From Promethearchaeota archaeon (GTDB lineage Archaea; Asgardarchaeota; Lokiarchaeia; Sigynarchaeales; SOKP01), in NCBI GenBank assembly GCA_019057735.1, contig JAHLWV010000176.1:1-5406 (forward strand): a stretch of 5,406 nucleotides of DNA. Reading direction: 5' to 3'. The notes beneath the pieces are model-generated. The model did no database searches. It saw only the letters and a program-made list of their open reading frames with translations, and was not told the origin of the DNA. Shown in pieces: positions 1 through 5,406 of the stretch. The position numbers and the translations under genes were made by a program. The stretch's first letter is position 1. The number at the start of each line of letters is the position of its first letter.

Positions 1-26
1 AATAAAAGTTTAATTTTATGAGTTAA

Positions 27-521
27 TTACAATTTTGCTCCACAATAAGCACAATATACTGCGGTTCCATCGCGTTTTACTGAGGTTCCACAGTTAGAAC
101 AATAGATTCCTTTCTCTTGAGTTGGTGATTGGTTGGAAGTTGTAACTTCTATATGTTTTGCCGCGCCAGTTTTAGTAGAGAATTTACCTCTCAATTCTCC
201 CCTTGCTTTGAGATCTAATACTATTGCTCGAGCATCTTTAGTTGTTATCCCTGTGTTAGTAGCGATTTGTTCAATCGATGCCGTAGGATTTTCTTCAAAT
301 TCGAGCTTAACAATGTTTCTTAACTTGCTTCTGCTTGTAAGCTTATAAATTTGGCTCGATATTATTGATAATCCAATCGCAATCCAGATAAATCCAAACC
401 ACCACCACCAGTTAAAAATATTCTCAAGGAGAGTATTAAATCCCCAATAAAGAAACATACCGGCTATGATGAGAGAACAGATGCTAAAACCTTCCGAATA
501 TTGGTTTGATTCATATTTCAT
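27..521 (-). CDS. Membrane-anchored winged-helix / C-terminal zinc-ribbon protein
   Basis: This 164-residue protein has no name I can give it, but its architecture is clear. Two hydrophobic segments (about residues 11-32 and 38-59) form a helical hairpin; the second opens with four consecutive tryptophans (38-41), probably at the membrane interface. Residues 66-113 look like a winged helix-turn-helix: helix KLRNIVKLEFEEN, then SIEQIATNTG, then a recognition-type helix TTKDARAIVLDLKARGEL followed by a basic wing. A low-complexity linker leads to a zinc ribbon with Cys141-x2-Cys144 and Cys157-x2-Cys160 (CSNCG...CAYCG). Proteins combining transmembrane segments, a wHTH and a zinc ribbon are common in archaea, especially Asgard genomes, where they are usually annotated only as zinc-ribbon domain proteins. 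A role as a membrane-tethered regulator, or in protein-protein contact, is inference. The start is ATG at 521 with no Shine-Dalgarno sequence; the stop is TAA at 27-29. Confidence 0.85.
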   Translation of the reverse strand: MKYESNQYSEGFSICSLIIAGMFLYWGFNTLLENIFNWWWWFGFIWIAIGLSIISSQIYKLTSRSKLRNIVKLEFEENPTASIEQIATNTGITTKDARAIVLDLKARGELRGKFSTKTGAAKHIEVTTSNQSPTQEKGIYCSNCGTSVKRDGTAVYCAYCGAKL

Positions 522-538
522 GATTTATCAAATTTACA

Positions 539-547
539 TTTATAATA
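539..547 (-). promoter_or_regulatory. Candidate TATA box for the wHTH/zinc-ribbon gene
   Basis: On the minus strand this reads TATTATAAA, centred about 22 bases upstream of the ATG at 521. A second candidate, TATAAAA at 556-562, lies about 38 bases upstream. The first would give an essentially leaderless transcript and the second a leader of about 10 bases. The surrounding DNA is so AT-rich that such matches are weak evidence. Confidence 0.35.
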
Positions 548-635
548 TTCAATAATTTTATACAAATAATTCTTACAATATCAAAATGGATGCAATATAT
601 ATGAGTTAAAGAGACCAATATTTAATTTTTCCTTC

Positions 636-647
636 TAAAATAAAAAT
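636..647 (-). terminator. U-tract terminator after the Roadblock gene
   Basis: On the minus strand, about 8 bases past the TAG stop of the Roadblock gene, the sequence reads ATTTTTATTTTA with no hairpin before it. Archaeal transcription ends at such U-runs without needing a stem-loop. This suggests that the Roadblock gene and the downstream gene at 27-521 are separate transcription units. Confidence 0.5.
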
Positions 648-654
648 TTGCGTC

Positions 655-1011
655 CTAAGGAGGATTTACTGACTGATTTATGATTCTAAAAACATCTTTC
701 ACTTCGACTTGGTCTTCAGTTAGAAGGATTACCAAATGTTCAAGTATTTTGATTGAAAGGATATAATAATTATCAGAATGAGTTATATTAAAATCTGGAC
801 TGTGAAGCCCTATACCTTCGGCAGTTTCTTCTGCTAATTCATAGAGCTGAGAGATATTTAGTGAGATCGAGGCTTTGTTAAACTCGTCCTCATTTATATA
901 TGATTTCATAATTACTCCATTCAAAGAGGAAATCAAGATGAAGTAAACTGACGGTCCTAAATCATTTACTAAATTGTTTAGAATTGAATCTAAATCTATT
1001 GTCAGCGTCAT
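655..1011 (-). CDS. Roadblock/LC7 domain protein
   Basis: A 118-residue protein made of a single Roadblock/LC7 domain. The fold signature is visible. An N-terminal amphipathic helix (residues 5-18, SILNNLVNDLG) is followed by a strand and turn with the typical 'fIlisSLnGViMkSY' pattern (23-38). Next come a long central helix (44-66, ending EETAEGIGL), a strand pair (SPDFNITHSDNYYILSIKI, 71-89), a hydrophobic strand (EHLVILLT, 91-98) and a C-terminal helix (101-114). Bacterial MglB, the Rag-GTPase Ragulator subunits and dynein LC7 share this fold and act as dimers on small GTPases. Asgard archaea carry many copies. No GTPase lies in the window, so the partner is unknown. It is on the same strand as the longin-like gene upstream, 101 bp away, but seems to have its own TATA box. 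The start is ATG at 1011 without a Shine-Dalgarno sequence. Confidence 0.85.
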   Translation of the reverse strand: MTLTIDLDSILNNLVNDLGPSVYFILISSLNGVIMKSYINEDEFNKASISLNISQLYELAEETAEGIGLHSPDFNITHSDNYYILSIKILEHLVILLTEDQVEVKDVFRIINQSVNPP

Positions 1012-1033
1012 TTAATTATTTTATAAATTTGAA

Positions 1034-1042
1034 TTATAAATA
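1034..1042 (-). promoter_or_regulatory. TATA box of the Roadblock gene (leaderless)
   Basis: On the minus strand this reads TATTTATAA, centred 27 bases upstream of the ATG at 1011. That is the distance at which an archaeal TATA box would put the transcription start on the start codon itself. With no Shine-Dalgarno sequence present, a leaderless mRNA is the simplest reading. Confidence 0.5.
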
Positions 1043-1112
1043 TGTTTGGGTAAGATTAATTAAGAGTACTAGTATCTCGTATAGTTTTTTTTTATATCTT
1101 AAGATGAACTGA

Positions 1113-1913
1113 CTATAAACAGAAATATTTATCTATTACAGGATCGAAACGATTAAATTGGGTTAGATCTCCATTAAAATTTTTTAGGCTATTACTGAAT
1201 TGGTCTAAGAATTCTTCTGCTATTAACTCTACATATCGAGCAAAATTGTCAGATTTAGGCGAGTGATCAACAAGATACGCAAAAATTATATCTTCTTTAA
1301 CAAAGATGAGAAATCGGTCATTTTTTAAATTTATAGATTGAAGCGTATCTTCGGAATTTTTTCCGATAACCTCATTTGAAAACATTAAAATAGCTGAAAG
1401 AAAACCTCCAATTTGAATGTGATTTTCTAATATTGATGTTTTATCGTCTCTAATTTTGGTGTATAAAGTATGCCCAGTCGTGCTAACTACAAAAAGAGCA
1501 GATAACCCTTCAAAACTAGGAATCATTTTATTACAGACTTTATTAATCACAGATAAGGATGCATTAGAACAATATAATTGGGCTAAAGTTCTTGAAACTG
1601 AACACATATCATCGTAATTCGTAAGAGTATCCTTTTCCATGACATAGAAAATTGCGATGCTTTCCCTGCCAAAAGAATAGAAATGAATAGAAACAGTGAA
1701 AATTCCAAGAAGATCAATCAATTTTCCCTCTTTCTTGTCTAAAATATCAGAACGGTAAAGTTTAATTAAATCCTTCATAAGAGAACGGCTAATTCCTTTA
1801 TTGTATATTAAATTAGAATTTCTTTCAGTTATCGAAACTATTCCAACGCCCAATATATCCATTGCGGCTGGAGTGTCCAATAATTCCTGATGGCCTTTCT
1901 CTAATACTATCAT
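1113..1913 (-). CDS. Tandem longin-like (profilin-fold) domain protein
   Basis: A 266-residue soluble protein that appears to contain two longin/Roadblock-like alpha-beta domains. The first spans about residues 20-118: GVGIVSITERNSNLIY, a helix ISRSLMKDLIKLY, paired strands FTVSIHFYSFGRESIAIFYV, then a helix 97-117. The second spans about 137-244: LSALFVVSTTGHTLYTK, a helix with GGFLSAILMFSNEV at 169-182, strands SINLKNDRFLIFVKEDIIFAYLVD, and a long C-terminal helix ARYVELIAEEFLDQF. A tail of about 20 residues ending in FDPVIDKYFCL follows. The 'GGFLSAI..F...i' helix and the terminal 'F..F...ID' tail are familiar from uncharacterised Asgard longin-type proteins. Longin folds form platforms for small GTPases (for example Mon1-Ccz1 or TRAPP subunits), so a GTPase or membrane-traffic role is possible but inferred. 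The neighbouring Roadblock gene fits that theme. The start is ATG at 1913; Met18 is an alternative start just before the first strand. Confidence 0.8.
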   Translation of the reverse strand: MIVLEKGHQELLDTPAAMDILGVGIVSITERNSNLIYNKGISRSLMKDLIKLYRSDILDKKEGKLIDLLGIFTVSIHFYSFGRESIAIFYVMEKDTLTNYDDMCSVSRTLAQLYCSNASLSVINKVCNKMIPSFEGLSALFVVSTTGHTLYTKIRDDKTSILENHIQIGGFLSAILMFSNEVIGKNSEDTLQSINLKNDRFLIFVKEDIIFAYLVDHSPKSDNFARYVELIAEEFLDQFSNSLKNFNGDLTQFNRFDPVIDKYFCL

Positions 1914-1940
1914 TTTTTATTTTTATATTATTTTTTGTGG

Positions 1941-1952
1941 TAAAATATTTTA
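1941..1952. promoter_or_regulatory. 12-bp perfect palindrome upstream of the longin-like gene
   Basis: TAAAATATTTTA is a perfect palindrome centred about 33 bases upstream of the ATG at 1913. It could be the TATA box, giving a leader of only a few bases, or an operator for a dimeric regulator. A palindrome of A and T alone is not rare in DNA this AT-rich, so this is a candidate only. Confidence 0.3.
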
Positions 1953-2155
1953 ATTTGAAACAAAAAAATCGCATTAACATAATATTTGAGGTAAAAATAC
2001 TATTTAAGTGTTTGTGTTTTGTTATAAAAAATTTCTACAAAAAAGGTATTCAAAAAGCGAGAATTCAATTTAAACTATAATAAAAGGCTATTTTTTCTCA
2101 TTTCAATCTTTTATCTCTTAAATTACTTTTGTATAACAAATTTTGGGTTCACCAC

Positions 2156-2187
2156 TTTTTGTGTGTGTTTTTTTTCTTTTTTTTTTT
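2156..2187 (+). terminator. Long poly-T tract (T5...T8-C-T11)
   Basis: T5 at 2156-2160 is followed by GTGTGTG, T8, C and T11. As a U-tract this would be a very strong archaeal terminator for a plus-strand transcript. The neighbouring genes diverge, however, so no annotated plus-strand gene ends here. It may end an unannotated small RNA or an antisense transcript, or be a plain homopolymer tract in an upstream region. Confidence 0.35.
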
Positions 2188-2211
2188 AATCAGTCAATAC
2201 ATATATTGAAT

Positions 2212-2270
2212 TAGAACCAAGTTTACCGCTAGTATACATCGAAATATTATATAAAAATATATAGAACCAA
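2212..2270 (+). repeat. Two direct copies of TAGAACCAA
   Basis: The 9-mer TAGAACCAA occurs at 2212-2220 and 2262-2270, starting exactly 50 bases apart, each preceded by an AT-rich TATA-like stretch. The copies lie about 120 and 70 bases upstream of the SCP2-like start codon. They could be binding sites or a duplicated promoter-proximal element. The function is unknown. Confidence 0.4.
2244..2263 (+). promoter_or_regulatory. Candidate TATA region for the first SCP2-like gene
   Basis: An uninterrupted A/T stretch containing TATATAAAAATATAT lies about 80-95 bases before the ATG at 2341. It would give a leader of roughly 60 bases. An alternative TATA-like TATATTTA at 2293-2300, about 44 bases before the ATG, would give a leader near 20 bases. 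I cannot choose between them from sequence alone. Confidence 0.35.
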
Positions 2271-2340
2271 CAACAAATACAAATAAAAGTGATATATTTA
2301 AGCTTTAACCGTAAATGTTTTCAGAATACTCAAACTCGGC

Positions 2341-2793
2341 ATGATTGACTCAAATACCATTTTAATGATACTGAATTCCCTGGAATCGCCAAGGACTTCC
2401 TTTAAGGCTACGCTAGATAAATTTATTAAGGAAGCAATCAAAATCGCTAATGTATCCGAGGATTTTAAAGACGAATTAGAATTATACGATGACATTATTT
2501 ACCATATCTACATCTATGATATAGACTATAACATCTGGATTAAGAAAAAAGGAACCTCCTTATCGTTTAATAACTCGTTCTATGAGGAAAACTCAGAGAA
2601 TTTCGAGATCCTACATTGTATTCTTACTAAAAATATTATGAGGAAAATTTTAATCCGAAAAGTGCAAGCATCTGATGCGTATATGAGAGGTTTGATTGAG
2701 ATCAAAGGTAATCTATCTAACGCCATCCATGCAAGGCATTTATGGAAGACTTTTCTCGCTTGCATGGATTACTTGGCTGAAAAAAATGAATAG
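2341..2793 (+). CDS. SCP2-like (sterol carrier / lipid-transfer fold) protein, paralogue A
   Basis: This 150-residue protein resembles the SCP2 sterol-transfer domain family. Features are helix 1 with SFKATLDKFIKEAIKIA (20-36), a beta-sheet region starting at YDDIIYHIYIYDIDYNIWIKKKG (49-71), the strand FEILHCILTKNIMRKIL (88-104), and the family-typical segment SDAYMRGLIEIKGNLSNAI (111-129). A C-terminal helix follows (about 131-146). SCP2 domains bind acyl-CoA, sterols or other hydrophobic ligands in a tunnel; the ligand here is unknown. It is paralogous to the minus-strand gene ending at 3876: 24 of the first 50 residues are identical without a gap. The start is ATG with no Shine-Dalgarno sequence, and the paralogue begins at the equivalent residue. 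tRNA-Arg follows 87 bp downstream. An 11-bp perfect inverted repeat lies near the end of the coding region. Confidence 0.8.
   Translation: MIDSNTILMILNSLESPRTSFKATLDKFIKEAIKIANVSEDFKDELELYDDIIYHIYIYDIDYNIWIKKKGTSLSFNNSFYEENSENFEILHCILTKNIMRKILIRKVQASDAYMRGLIEIKGNLSNAIHARHLWKTFLACMDYLAEKNE
2725..2769 (+). repeat. 11-bp perfect inverted repeat inside the 3' end of SCP2-like gene A
   Basis: ATCCATGCAAG (2725-2735) and CTTGCATGGAT (2759-2769) are exact reverse complements separated by 23 bases. In mRNA they can form an 11-bp hairpin ending about 25 bases before the stop codon. The DNA encodes a normal-looking C-terminal helix, so the repeat may be coincidental, or it may stabilise or regulate the transcript. 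Confidence 0.6.
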
Positions 2794-2847
2794 AAATTCT
2801 CTCTTCTCCTCTAGCGTTTTAGTAAAATTATTTAGAAACTTAGAATT

Positions 2848-2856
2848 AATTTATCT
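2848..2856 (+). promoter_or_regulatory. Candidate TATA box for tRNA-Arg
   Basis: AATTTATCT is centred about 29 bases upstream of the first base of the tRNA, the right distance for an archaeal TATA box if transcription starts at or very near the mature 5' end. It is a weak match in AT-rich DNA. Confidence 0.35.
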
Positions 2857-2880
2857 TAGACACGATTTAATCATTTTTAA

Positions 2881-2955
2881 GGGCCTATAATCTAGCCTGG
2901 ATAGGGTACCCGCCTTCGGAGCGGGATTTCGCAGGTTCAAATCCTGCTAGGCTCA
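2881..2955 (+). tRNA. tRNA-Arg (anticodon UCG)
   Basis: A complete cloverleaf can be folded. The acceptor GGGCCTA/TAGGCTC has 7 pairs, one of them G-U. The D-arm is ATCT/GGGT with loop AGCCTGGATA, which has the conserved A14, G15, G18-G19 and A21. The anticodon stem CCCGC/GCGGG is perfect, with loop CTTCGGA; the anticodon TCG is at 2916-2918 and reads CGA and possibly other CGN codons. The variable loop is ATTTC, and the T-arm is GCAGG/CCTGC with loop TTCAAAT. The discriminator is A at 2955. There is no intron, and CCA is not encoded (the next bases are CTTTT). The D-stem is weak, with one A-U, one C-G and two G-U-type pairs. A short T-run (2957-2960) follows directly and may end the transcript. 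Confidence 0.95.
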
Positions 2956-3034
2956 CTTTTAAATTGTATCATTAATCTGTTCAAAATTGGATTAGCTCTT
3001 AAATTGACAGAACAATATAATTACGGTTTAAATA

Positions 3035-3844
3035 ATGGAATGGAAATCTGATTATATTACTTACGCTGAAAACAAAATTCATTACTTTCATGGGAATGAA
3101 AATGGAAATAAAAATCCAATAATTCTCTTACATGGAGCAATGGATAACGGATTATGCTGGTCTCCCGTGGCTCAGAAATTATCTGAAAACTATCGCGTCA
3201 TCATGCCCGACGCAAGAGGTCATGGTTTAACGGAAATTTTTGATAATTCTTTATCGATTGATTTGATGGCGAAAGATATTGCAATGGTAATTCAGAACCT
3301 TAAATTAGACTCCCCCCAGATAATGGGGCATTCGATGGGAGCTCAAATGACGATAGTAGTCGCCTCGAAATACCCCGAATTAGTGAGTAGAATTGTATTA
3401 GAAGATCCTGCTATTAGGCTTAAAAAAATCCCAAAACTAAGAAAAAGATTATTTAAATTTATCGCAAAAATAGTCGTCTCTATTTTACTTAAAGGTTCAT
3501 ACGAAAAATTAATAGAAAGAGCTCACAAACGGAATCCCAAGTGGTCTGACGAGGAATTACAGCCATGGGCGGAATCTAAAATACTCTTTAGAGAAAATAA
3601 TCCAAAAATGCTCCTGGGAATTCTTGATAATTCTCCTGATTGGAAGGATGTCATTTCAAAAATCTCGTGTCCGATTCTTTTAATTACTTCAGATAAAGGG
3701 CTCACCTCAGATGAAACGGCACGAGATATCGTAGAATTAAGTAAAGATTGTAAATGGATCAAAATTGAGGGAGCAGGCCATAATATCCGTCGCGAGCAGT
3801 ACGAGCGATTCATGGAAGAAATTCAAGACTTTTTCATACCATAA
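3035..3844 (+). CDS. Alpha/beta hydrolase (serine esterase/lipase type)
   Basis: A 269-residue protein of the alpha/beta hydrolase fold with an intact catalytic set. The oxyanion motif HGAMDNG is at 33-39 after the strand PIILLHG. The second conserved block, YRVIMPDARGHGLT, is at 53-66. The nucleophile elbow GHSMG is at 98-102, with Ser100 as nucleophile. EDP at 123-125 marks the start of a mostly helical lid, about 126-200. The probable acid is Asp220 in LLITSDKG, and the catalytic His249 is in GAGHN. Length and order match the usual single-domain family of about 270 residues. There is no signal peptide, so it is cytoplasmic. The fold covers esterases, lipases and C-C hydrolases, so the substrate cannot be named. 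It lies between two SCP2-like genes, which suggests a lipid or acyl substrate, but this is inference. The start is ATG at 3035 without a Shine-Dalgarno sequence. Confidence 0.9.
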   Translation: MEWKSDYITYAENKIHYFHGNENGNKNPIILLHGAMDNGLCWSPVAQKLSENYRVIMPDARGHGLTEIFDNSLSIDLMAKDIAMVIQNLKLDSPQIMGHSMGAQMTIVVASKYPELVSRIVLEDPAIRLKKIPKLRKRLFKFIAKIVVSILLKGSYEKLIERAHKRNPKWSDEELQPWAESKILFRENNPKMLLGILDNSPDWKDVISKISCPILLITSDKGLTSDETARDIVELSKDCKWIKIEGAGHNIRREQYERFMEEIQDFFIP

Positions 3845-3848
3845 TTAA

Positions 3849-3853
3849 TTTTT
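3849..3853 (+). terminator. Short U-tract after the hydrolase gene
   Basis: TTTTT begins five bases after the TAA stop of the hydrolase, in a 31-bp gap shared with the convergent SCP2-like gene. It is a plausible hairpin-free archaeal terminator, but short. Confidence 0.35.
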
Positions 3854-3865
3854 AAATAAGTCGTC

Positions 3866-3871
3866 AAAAAA
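3866..3871 (-). terminator. Short U-tract after SCP2-like gene B
   Basis: On the minus strand six T's follow the TGA stop of the second SCP2-like gene by a few bases. With the plus-strand T-run at 3849-3853, the gap between the two convergent genes offers one U-tract in each direction. Confidence 0.4.
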
Positions 3872-3875
3872 CTGT

Positions 3876-4307
3876 TCACTTAGAACCGTTTCTTTTTCTT
3901 AAATATTTTTCAAAAATGCGAAAAACTTTAATATATCTTAAACCCTGAGAAAGAGAGCCTTCAACCTTAATCTTTCCCTTCATAAAAGCGTCGGTACCGC
4001 TTAGGTCTTCTTTTAAAATTTTTATGATTAATTCCTTAGTAAGAGTGATTTTAAATAACGCTTGAGGATGGACTCCTTTTTCGTAATAAAGTCTACCGTC
4101 TGATACTTCCAGCCAATAATTAAAATCTGCATCAACTACATATGTTTGGTAAATATCATCATATCCCATTAATTCTTCCTTGAGTTCTTCAGTGTTATTC
4201 ATGATTTTTACAACCCCCTTAATGATTTTGTCTAACACATATTCAAATTTAACACCGTTGCTCTCCAAATTTTCCAAAATCGAAATAATAGGGTTATGAT
4301 CCGACAT
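3876..4307 (-). CDS. SCP2-like (sterol carrier / lipid-transfer fold) protein, paralogue B
   Basis: This 143-residue protein belongs to the same family as the plus-strand gene at 2341. Visible features are the helix FEYVLDKIIKGVVKIM (21-36), YDDIYQTYVVDADFNYWLEV (49-68), the strand ALFKITLTKELIIKIL (83-98), and the clear SCP2 hallmark TDAFMKGKIKVEGSLSQ (105-121). The last of these is the lipid-tunnel edge of the fold. The protein probably binds a hydrophobic ligand in the cytoplasm; the ligand is unknown. A GTG at 4311-4313 would add two residues, but the ATG at 4305-4307 aligns exactly with the start of paralogue A (YDD at residues 49-51 in both), so I chose the ATG. The gene is convergent with the hydrolase and 182 bp downstream of the methyltransferase on the same strand. 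No Shine-Dalgarno sequence is seen. Confidence 0.85.
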   Translation of the reverse strand: MSDHNPIISILENLESNGVKFEYVLDKIIKGVVKIMNNTEELKEELMGYDDIYQTYVVDADFNYWLEVSDGRLYYEKGVHPQALFKITLTKELIIKILKEDLSGTDAFMKGKIKVEGSLSQGLRYIKVFRIFEKYLRKRNGSK

Positions 4308-4481
4308 TAGCACAAACGAGTTTTTGTTTACCTCTACTACAAAAGCCTTATTCCTATATCTAAAAGTAATAGGACAGCTATATATTTCTTTTTATTCAAA
4401 TAAAAGGGAACAATAATAATAAGTTAGGTCTTTTTTCATCTTGAAAAACTACTACGATAATCAAAATAAGGACGAAACAGC

Positions 4482-4487
4482 AAAAAA
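4482..4487 (-). terminator. U-tract after the methyltransferase gene
   Basis: On the minus strand T6 begins two bases after the TAA stop of the methyltransferase, which would end its transcript before SCP2-like gene B. In the rest of the 176-182 bp gap I see only AT-rich sequence. The TATA-like stretches on the minus strand at about 4353-4366 and 4379-4388 could serve the SCP2-like gene with a leader of some 25-50 bases. Confidence 0.4.
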
Positions 4488-4489
4488 TA

Positions 4490-5059
4490 TTAATCCTTAT
4501 TGAATCTAATATAGAACATTCCATCGATAGGGTATTTTTCTACGACACTAAACCCATTAGAAGCACCTAAGTTTGCGTAATATTCTAAATTTTGCTCTTT
4601 AACCCATTTTGTAGCGTATCCCGTTGATATATTTGTATCCCTAACCTTGACTTCAAGCATAAGACCATAAAACTCTTTTTCGTGCATACCTCGCTTTGGA
4701 ATTGGAAAATCCCAAACTACGAATTCTCCACCTTTTTTTAATACGCGGTGTATTTCTTGAAAAATTAATTGATGGTTCTCGAGGGGAACATACATTAAAG
4801 TGAAAAAAGCAGTGGCCGTATCAAATGTTTCGTCTATAAATTTCAATTCTTTTGCATCCATAATTATTTTTAAATAATCGCCAGGAGGCGCTTGTCTGAG
4901 TTCGGATTCGCTACGATCGATAGCAACTACGCTCTCACCTTTTAGTAAGCCGATAATTCCTTCTCCTCCACCTCCTATATCTAAAATCCTCCCCGATAAT
5001 TCAACGTCAGTTAAGTCGATATGTTGCGTTTCAATGAATTTAACATCCTCTTCAGTCAT
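4490..5059 (-). CDS. Class I SAM-dependent methyltransferase (methyltransferase type 11 family)
   Basis: A 189-residue Rossmann-fold methyltransferase. Motif I, with the glycine-rich SAM loop, is RILDIGGGGEG at 24-34. The acidic end of the second strand, which holds the ribose hydroxyls, is VVAIDRSESEL at 44-54 (Asp48). KIIMDAKEL at 64-72 is the adenine-side Asp (Asp68). The motif IV region is FDTATAFFTLMYV at 79-91, followed by the helix IFQEIHRVLKKGG and strand EFVVWDF (112-118). The C-terminal part (about 125-189) is a small cap with GYATKW and LEYYANLGASNGFSVVEK. The family of about 190-residue proteins starting 'EEDxxFIExxHIDL...GRILDIGGGGEG' is found in archaea and Firmicutes, but I know no established substrate for it. 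The start is ATG at 5059 with a TATA-like element 26 bases upstream and no Shine-Dalgarno sequence. It is monocistronic by spacing. Confidence 0.9.
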   Translation of the reverse strand: MTEEDVKFIETQHIDLTDVELSGRILDIGGGGEGIIGLLKGESVVAIDRSESELRQAPPGDYLKIIMDAKELKFIDETFDTATAFFTLMYVPLENHQLIFQEIHRVLKKGGEFVVWDFPIPKRGMHEKEFYGLMLEVKVRDTNISTGYATKWVKEQNLEYYANLGASNGFSVVEKYPIDGMFYIRFNKD

Positions 5060-5080
5060 ACAATGTTTAATCTTTCAAAC

Positions 5081-5089
5081 TTTTAAAAA
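5081..5089 (-). promoter_or_regulatory. Candidate TATA box of the methyltransferase gene
   Basis: On the minus strand this reads TTTTTAAAA, centred 26 bases upstream of the ATG at 5059. That matches a leaderless transcript, as for the Roadblock gene. Confidence 0.4.
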
Positions 5090-5174
5090 TTTTATGCGAA
5101 AACAACGAGGTAAAAATGCCCTCCCTATGAATTAAATAAAATTTTTAAATCTGGAATCACTTTTTTTGTTATAG

Positions 5175-5182
5175 TAATATAG
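5175..5182 (+). promoter_or_regulatory. Candidate TATA box for tRNA-Asp
   Basis: TAATATAG is centred about 29 bases upstream of the first tRNA base, the normal position for a TATA box if transcription starts near the mature 5' end. Confidence 0.35.
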
Positions 5183-5207
5183 ATTCAATCTGTTTTCTAT
5201 CAAATAA

Positions 5208-5314
5208 GCCCATATAGTGTAGTACGGTTAGCATTAGGGACTGTCACTCCTTCGACCCGGGTTCAACTCCGCGTGTGAAATCCATACGCGATGAAACTCC
5301 CGGTGTGGGCGCCA
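5208..5314 (+). tRNA. tRNA-Asp (anticodon GUC) with an intron in the T-loop
   Basis: After removing 30 bases (5268-5297) a full cloverleaf forms. The acceptor GCCCATA/TGTGGGC has 7 pairs, one G-U. The D-arm is GTGT/GCAT with loop AGTACGGTTA (A14, G15, G18-G19, A21). The anticodon stem is AGGGA/TCCTT with loop CTGTCAC; the anticodon GTC is at 5243-5245. The variable loop is CGAC, four bases, as is usual for Asp. The T-arm is CCGGG/CCCGG with restored loop TTCAACT. The discriminator is G at 5311, normal for tRNA-Asp, and CCA is encoded at 5312-5314, unlike in tRNA-Arg here. Six T's follow at once. Read without splicing, the T-arm is broken, so a default tRNA scan could miss this gene or call it a pseudogene. 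Confidence 0.92.
5268..5297 (+). other. 30-nt BHB intron at tRNA position 59/60
   Basis: The precursor folds into an archaeal bulge-helix-bulge. The outer helix is the T-stem CCGGG/CCCGG, and the central 4-bp helix pairs TTCA (5262-5265, exon) with TGAA (5292-5295, intron). The first bulge is ACT (5266-5268) and the second is ACT (5296-5298). The inner helix is CGCGTGTG/CATACGCG (5270-5277 with 5283-5290, one G-U pair), closed by loop AAATC. One C-A mismatch (5269/5291) sits next to the first bulge. Cutting each bulge between its second and third base removes 5268-5297 and joins ...TTCAAC to TCCCGG..., giving exactly the standard T-arm. The cut sites come from known rules for archaeal splicing endonuclease; the fold is visible in the sequence. 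Confidence 0.9.
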
Positions 5315-5320
5315 TTTTTT
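5315..5320 (+). terminator. U-tract terminator of tRNA-Asp
   Basis: TTTTTT directly follows the encoded CCA, a typical hairpin-free end for an archaeal tRNA transcript. Confidence 0.6.
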
Positions 5321-5406
5321 AACCTATACTATCGATTATGTAAAACTTGCACTTTTTACTATTGTCGAAAAACTGACAAAATTATTCAAATCTAAGCCAG
5401 AATCCC
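5321..5406. other. Window end without a supported gene
   Basis: These last bases are AT-rich. One minus-strand frame stays open from the window edge for 22 codons to a TAA at 5336-5338. It could be the C-terminus of a gene lying to the right, but so short an open frame is not evidence by itself. Confidence 0.4.

Follow-up and report, generated by a model that had tools for sequence, protein, structure and literature searches.

Within a stretch of 5,406 nucleotides (hereafter the window), positions 5208-5314 read as a tRNA-Asp(GUC) gene with an encoded CCA and a 30-nt intron in the T-loop. We conclude, with little room for doubt, that this is a functional, probably single-copy Lokiarchaeal gene whose bulge-helix-bulge (BHB) intron would be spliced by the pathway proposed below. 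The conclusion is based on the anatomy of the gene, its conservation, covariation within the intron, an exactly spliced intronless orthologue and the presence of the enzyme genes in relatives.

Structure of the interrupted tRNA-Asp gene

The acceptor stem (GCCCATA/TGTGGGC) is paired at 7 of 7 positions, including one G-U pair. The following features were assigned by sequence reading and by comparison with the intronless gene of a relative, G003.

5135-5147, + strand: TATA-like block AATAAAATTTTTA, putative promoter upstream of tRNA-Asp
5208-5267, + strand: 5' exon of tRNA-Asp(GUC), positions 1-59 (sequence; spliced form identical to the G003 gene)
5217-5234: D-arm
5236-5252: anticodon arm; 5-bp stem 5236-5240/5248-5252, 7-nt loop CTGTCAC
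5243-5245, + strand: anticodon GTC
5257-5261 and 5299-5303: T-stem, CCGGG and CCCGG
5262-5265, + strand: TTCA, exon strand of the BHB central helix, partner of 5292-5295 (covariation at position 57)
5266-5268, + strand: 5' bulge ACT, predicted cut after AC (a standard-rule cut gives the G003 sequence)
5268-5297, + strand: BHB intron, 30 nt, in the T-loop, between 59 and 60 by the BHB rule (absent in syntenic G003; covariation)
5270-5290, + strand: inner hairpin, 8 bp with 5-nt loop (all 8 pairs change on both sides)
5292-5295, + strand: TGAA, intron strand of the BHB central helix (pairing; covariation)
5296-5298, + strand: 3' bulge ACT, predicted cut after AC (a standard-rule cut gives the G003 sequence)
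5298-5311, + strand: 3' exon with position 60, T-stem 3' strand, acceptor 3' strand and discriminator G (sequence; G003)
5311: discriminator G
5312-5314, + strand: encoded CCA (sequence; same in G003)

Excision of 5268-5297 leaves the 7-nt T-loop TTCAACT and allows the T-stem CCGGG/CCCGG to close. The predicted spliced 77-mer, CCA included, is present letter for letter in G003, which is syntenic with window positions 8-4453 (87%) and 5132-5406 (85%) and lacks the intron there, the exons being unchanged between the two. As expected of a BHB intron, a normal tRNA is left after excision, and a central helix of about 4 bp is flanked by 3-nt bulges. An initial annotation of the window had proposed a 30-nt T-loop intron at position 59/60, the excision of which rebuilds the T-arm of a tRNA with Asp anticodon and G discriminator; the anatomy (TTCAACT, GTC, G5311) and the identity to the G003 gene bear this out. 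The same annotation had called the BHB complete, and here the TTCA/TGAA helix, the two ACT bulges and the 8-bp hairpin (CGCGTGTG at 5270-5277, CATACGCG at 5283-5290) stand, whereas completeness does not, as C5269 and A5291 form a mismatch between the 5' bulge and the inner hairpin. Since the corresponding column pair is standard in only 3 of 18 distinct sequences, window included, the BHB is better described as slightly relaxed.

Direct repeats (AACTCC) flank the intron at 5265-5270 and 5295-5300, and several excision frames therefore give one identical spliced product. Because these repeats hide the exact cut, the 59/60 placement follows from the BHB cutting rule and not from the intronless gene. 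The precursor fold, in which acceptor stem, T-stem and 8-bp hairpin are all present, has z = -2.41 and was equalled in stability by 3 of 200 shuffles, so that fold stability, taken alone, is modest evidence for the intron. Sequence comparison (the survey of loci, covariation and the G003 gene) puts the intron beyond chance. In an alignment of nine upstream regions, that of the window among them, eight share the letters of the TATA-like block, and L089 differs by a one-base gap.

ARAGORN run on the window did not call the tRNA-Asp at 5208-5314 and reported a tRNA-Arg at 2881-2956 as the sole tRNA, and the Rfam RF00005 match to 5211-5277 reached 26.2 bits against a gathering score of 29 with the T-arm mispaired in the alignment. 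The intron thus hides the gene from simple tRNA searches, as had been anticipated in the initial annotation. A sub-threshold Rfam match to plastid ycf2 on the minus strand of 2881-2956, antisense to the tRNA-Arg, is probably spurious.

Host and closest relatives

The initial annotation had considered an Asgard host conditionally, and the host can now be assigned as a Lokiarchaeon based on 91.3% DNA identity between window positions 3873-5404 and L001, a contig of Candidatus Lokiarchaeia archaeon ABR04. The methyltransferase encoded at 4490-5059 has relatives named Lokiarchaeota in their sources (81% identity in the best named case), and a scan of genome contigs found the L001 protein to be 90% identical. 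L001 contains the same tRNA-Asp with its intron, differing by one change from U-A to U-G that preserves pairing. Its genome (G001) was used as a stand-in for the genome of the window.

The methyltransferase gene is missing at the otherwise syntenic G003 locus (L125, 8647-8731). It shares this distribution with the Asp intron, both being absent in G003 and present in L001. No relative of the methyltransferase was found in the viral contigs searched, and a phage search with window positions 5150-5380 gave no match.

Covariation of hairpin and central helix

The structure was tested on the 20 Asp loci with 30-nt introns (of 28 with a T-loop intron), representing 18 distinct 47-mers in a gap-free alignment. 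In the structure described above, 91.2% of cells are paired and the covariation score is 0.458, compared with 0.150 (sd 0.022) after shuffling, with 0 of 500 shuffles as high, and with 0.035-0.250 for slid structures. All 8 pairs of the inner hairpin show compensatory changes on both sides. Counting the pairs changed on both sides is not telling alone, since 60 of 500 shuffles attained the observed number of 9.

The central helix is paired in 86.1% of cells, its last pair failing in 6 of 18 sequences. Among 61 distinct T-loop introns from all isotypes, 4 of 4 pairs form in 35 and at least 3 of 4 in 48, where 4-mers drawn at random from these introns give about 12 on average. In the same set, position 57 and the facing intron base covary: G57 faces C in 20 of 23 introns and A57 faces T in 16 of 38. 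The G57-C association has a Fisher p of 5.7e-11, an optimistic value because the sequences are related. Together with the C5269.A5291 mismatch, the imperfect central helices predicted in relatives make this a relaxed BHB.

Distribution among tRNA-Asp genes of the phylum

Of 227 genomes from the phylum, 117 matched a tRNA-Asp pattern allowing up to 2 mismatches, although part of the matching places were tRNA-Glu or others. Places reading as Asp among the matches listed were taken as tRNA-Asp loci of relatives, resulting in 60 loci from 60 different genomes, mostly drafts. Including the window, a T-loop intron is present in 28 of 61 loci (27 of the 60 others) and there is none in 33. Intron length is 30 nt in 20 of the 28 and 28-33 nt in the other 8. 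Extra 5' sequence, read as D-arm introns from its length, was found in 17 of 61 loci, the 5' part of L094 being ambiguous. One tRNA-Asp (L114, genome G031), located on a single 4.36-Mb contig, carries both a D-arm insert, seen as extra 5' sequence, and a 28-nt T-loop intron.

With respect to another tRNA-Asp(GUC), a check suggested by the initial annotation, no second tRNA-Asp was seen among the matches listed for the 60 genomes with this pattern (up to 2 mismatches), and the tRNAs read in G001 include one Asp. The window's gene is thus probably the single copy, judging from relatives that are mostly drafts and in which a second copy could lie outside the assemblies or the pattern.

ARAGORN was tested on 53 of the 60 loci. 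All 13 loci without any intron were called, while Asp was called in 2 of 13 loci with only extra 5' sequence; among 27 loci with a T-loop intron, 24 were missed and 3 gave calls ending inside the intron. Essential Lokiarchaeia tRNA genes can consequently escape common finders, and Asgard tRNA counts from such tools may be too low.

T-loop introns in other tRNAs

A BHB-aware script found T-loop inserts in five tRNAs of G001, namely Asp, Asn(GTT), Arg(GCG), Val(TAC) and Lys(TTT), and inserts were also seen by eye in Thr(TGT) and Arg(TCG). Covariance models built on mixed Asp/non-Asp alignments were dropped due to misaligned variable loops; a model, R1, was built from five non-Asp tRNAs with T-loop introns and matches at least 48 of 222 genomes at E <= 1e-13 (17 candidates per genome scored). 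All 30 loci taken from the R1 matches carry a T-loop insert of 24-34 nt and a restored T-stem, it being noted that they come from 30 of the 48 matching genomes, were preselected by a T-loop-intron model and include one member of the training set (L134). In total, ten anticodons with T-loop inserts were identified by script or eye. Exactly 30 nt is the length of 42 of the 61 distinct T-loop introns and 31 nt that of 11, and in Arg(GCG) genes a repeat makes the intron site ambiguous by one base. The tRNA-Arg(TCG) orthologues differ: those of the window (2881-2955) and of G003 have no intron, that of L001 (5167-5272) has one in the T-loop, and that of L002 (4051-4153) has an insert close to the variable region.

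The near-universal T-loop sequence TTCR constitutes half of the central helix, so that an insert ending in YGAA plus a bulge should be recognisable in any tRNA. We tentatively extend this to Promethearchaeota as a whole, in a joint proposal of four parts that we hold to be somewhat less than an even prospect: the T-loop may be a standing intron site shared by many tRNAs, with the invariant TTCR as universal BHB exon half; any tRNA could have a hairpin spliced out of it, provided that the hairpin measures about 30 nt and ends in YGAA; T-loop introns would be inherited within an isotype and lost precisely and often; and they would be tolerated because of a splicing endonuclease of the CSL (Crenarchaea-specific loop) type. 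If this proposal is true, a CSL-type loop would have been present close to the root of the eukaryotic TSEN lineage, which would question pure convergence of the archaeal and eukaryotic enzyme loops.

Gain, loss and origin of the Asp intron

For an RpoB tree, 30 genomes were picked from the Asp loci, of which 28 matched and 26 were used (17 with and 9 without the Asp intron); G012 (two rpoB copies) and G126 (fragments) were dropped. At least 9 state changes are forced by well-supported branches alone. As shuffled labels need 7.7 changes on average, intron presence shows no clustering whatever on the tree. Genomes with nearly identical RpoB can have opposite states, for example G016 without and G024 with the intron. 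Mixed bins could inflate the count of state changes. The two rpoB copies of G012 are full matches (L182, L192) in one genome bin, suggesting that this bin is mixed.

In 12 genomes chosen for spread, Asp introns have a mean similarity of 0.394, compared with 0.353 for stem-permuted versions (0 of 300 as high) and 0.320 for other isotypes, a difference driven by few pairs (G138/G024, 0.79) in a set of which 4 genomes are not on the RpoB tree. This greater likeness disfavours a history of independent gains alone, although some branches may have acquired the Asp intron on their own. We read the pattern as an old Asp intron that was probably lost repeatedly and exactly, and slippage between the flanking AACTCC repeats would be one simple way of exact loss. 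Such frequent, exact presence and absence provides a natural system for the study of tRNA intron gain and loss.

Close similarity of introns between different tRNA species has been described in Thermoproteales and read as transposition (PMC4090602). Here, introns of different isotypes have a mean similarity of 0.349, which is at the shuffled level (0.339), and transposition between isotypes was rejected at this resolution.

Splicing enzymes and proposed maturation pathway

The initial annotation had suggested a splicing endonuclease of broad specificity and asked for its type. All 39 relatives surveyed have a splicing endonuclease match, with two PF01974 matches in 34 and one in 5, in open frames of 188-270 aa apart from one of 105 aa at a contig end. 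The best PDB match of the G001 alpha subunit is the Aeropyrum pernix subunit 3p1z (E 1.7e-33). The catalytic Tyr, His and Lys are all retained, and its SKPR lies opposite K44-P45-R46 of the Crenarchaea-specific loop in A. pernix (numbering counted from the alignment). At all 13 alpha loci examined, comprising the ten best-scoring and three hand-chosen ones, an ORF carries a KP[RK] loop along with the Y-H and K motifs, and this loop matches the CSL pattern of a loop Lys followed by Pro or Val and by Arg or Lys. The G001 partner (beta) subunit best matches Methanocaldococcus jannaschii EndA (1a79, E 1.3e-21), and five beta ORFs, one of them cut by a contig end, lack the His by eye, one having been aligned. 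Separately encoded paralogous subunits, seen in 34 of 39 relatives, together with the catalytic Tyr-His-Lys in alpha and the missing His in beta in the ORFs inspected, point to an (alpha-beta)2-like enzyme with a CSL-type loop in relatives, a type for which broad specificity is predicted. RtcB was found in 3 of 3 genomes tested. The endonuclease and RtcB genes of the window's own organism are presumed from those of its relatives.

Relaxed BHB introns are described as efficiently removed by (alpha-beta)2 and epsilon2 enzymes only (PMC6379350), and (alpha-beta)2 enzymes as occurring mostly in Crenarchaeota (PMC4033280). The G001 alpha subunit resembles that of the A. pernix (alpha-beta)2 endonuclease (3p1z/3ajv) in Tyr, His, Lys and the K-P-R loop; it differs in having an Asgard host and in that assembly and specificity are predicted from genes alone. 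Circular rRNA transcripts have been reported in Asgard archaea, together with EndA and RtcB in the genomes of that study (PMC12918454), which favours active BHB processing in the phylum. A supplementary figure of the same paper types EndA in archaeal genomes including Asgards, so that the Asgard enzyme type may already be published there. The CSL residues of A. pernix are named in PMC12397907, where a recent proposal holds the archaeal and eukaryotic loops to be convergent and the main text does not contain the word Asgard; the CSL-type alpha subunit described here is relevant to this proposal, as it comes from what is held to be the closest phylum to eukaryotes.

We infer the cuts themselves, the assembly of the enzyme and the order of maturation as follows. 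Transcription would start from the upstream TATA-type promoter. In the precursor, TTCA of the T-loop would pair with TGAA near the 3' end of the intron, and the central helix would have the T-stem on one side and the intron hairpin on the other. Both bulges would then be cut after their second base by an (alpha-beta)2 endonuclease carrying a KPR loop of the CSL type. Only once RtcB has ligated 5267 to 5298 would the T-loop have its normal 7 nt and the elbow form. As the intron, while present, prevents the D-loop/T-loop elbow from forming, splicing should precede steps that require the elbow. With the promoter taken as upstream, an insert in the T-arm should not harm transcription; in eukaryotes, the B box lies in the T-arm, so that such an insert differs in its effect on transcription.

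Alternative explanations

A pseudogene, in which a tRNA-Asp copy no longer in use took up the hairpin and a second copy does the work, would agree with the failure of ARAGORN and the Rfam threshold to accept the gene. However, the exons are unchanged between the window and G003, the hairpin and the central helix covary, and the scenario lost support because one Asp was read in G001 and no second tRNA-Asp appeared among the matches listed for the 60 relatives; it is already largely refuted and we consider it extremely improbable. Equally hard to credit is a mature tRNA that retains the hairpin as an extended T-arm. The minimum-energy fold does join the T-stem and inner hairpin into one long arm, but TTCAA is invariant in the 18 aligned sequences, found with a pattern favouring TTCAA, the 3' side of the intron covaries with position 57 as a BHB needs, and the close relative G003 lacks the insert exactly. 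The gene is thus, on comparative grounds, very probably real and spliced rather than broken.

A different kind of proposal concerns why the intron is kept and not what it is. The T-loop lies in the 3' half of the tRNA, which is often used as an att site; by interrupting it, an intron would destroy the attachment site of mobile elements and hence persist. Such an integrase shield was put forward by Randau and Soll, as cited in PMC3293823, and Heimdallarchaeal elements do integrate at tRNA genes (PMC8813620). The highly unstable presence of the intron, with at least 9 flips in 26 genomes, is however what would be expected of a neutral or weakly selected insert, and we regard the shield as unlikely.

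Relation to known tRNA introns

The initial annotation held noncanonical archaeal tRNA introns to be known mainly from Thermoproteota and an Asgard case to be noteworthy. The host is indeed an Asgard; however, there is Asgard precedent in Atabeyarchaeia and Freyarchaeia, where noncanonical tRNA introns are reported and 92-95% of tRNA genes have at least one intron (PMC11291895), so that the kind is already known. The introns of these two lineages resemble the window's in their Asgard hosts and often noncanonical positions. They belong to other Asgard classes, and the passages on them in PMC11291895 specify neither a T-loop site nor a rule of length, a pattern of presence and absence or a type of endonuclease. 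Crenarchaeal and Caldiarchaeum tRNA introns likewise have BHB or relaxed BHB structures, with the T-loop or T-arm among the described sites (PMC6379350, PMC3293823). A literature search, covering sources other than subscription papers and supplements, found no report of T-loop introns in Lokiarchaeia; what is new here, as far as that search reaches, is the T-loop as a recurrent intron site in this class. Noncanonical introns in tRNAscan-SE 2.0 were modelled from Crenarchaeota, Euryarchaeota and Thaumarchaeota, Asgards being absent from the main text (PMC8450103).

Other features of the window

Positions 1113-1913 encode a 266-aa ORF with a weak longin-domain match (Intu_longin_1, E 0.0036, below cut-off), and positions 3876-4313 an SCP2-like protein. 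The latter and a small ORF at 2341-2793 have in common only a weak, below-cut-off DUF7884 match.
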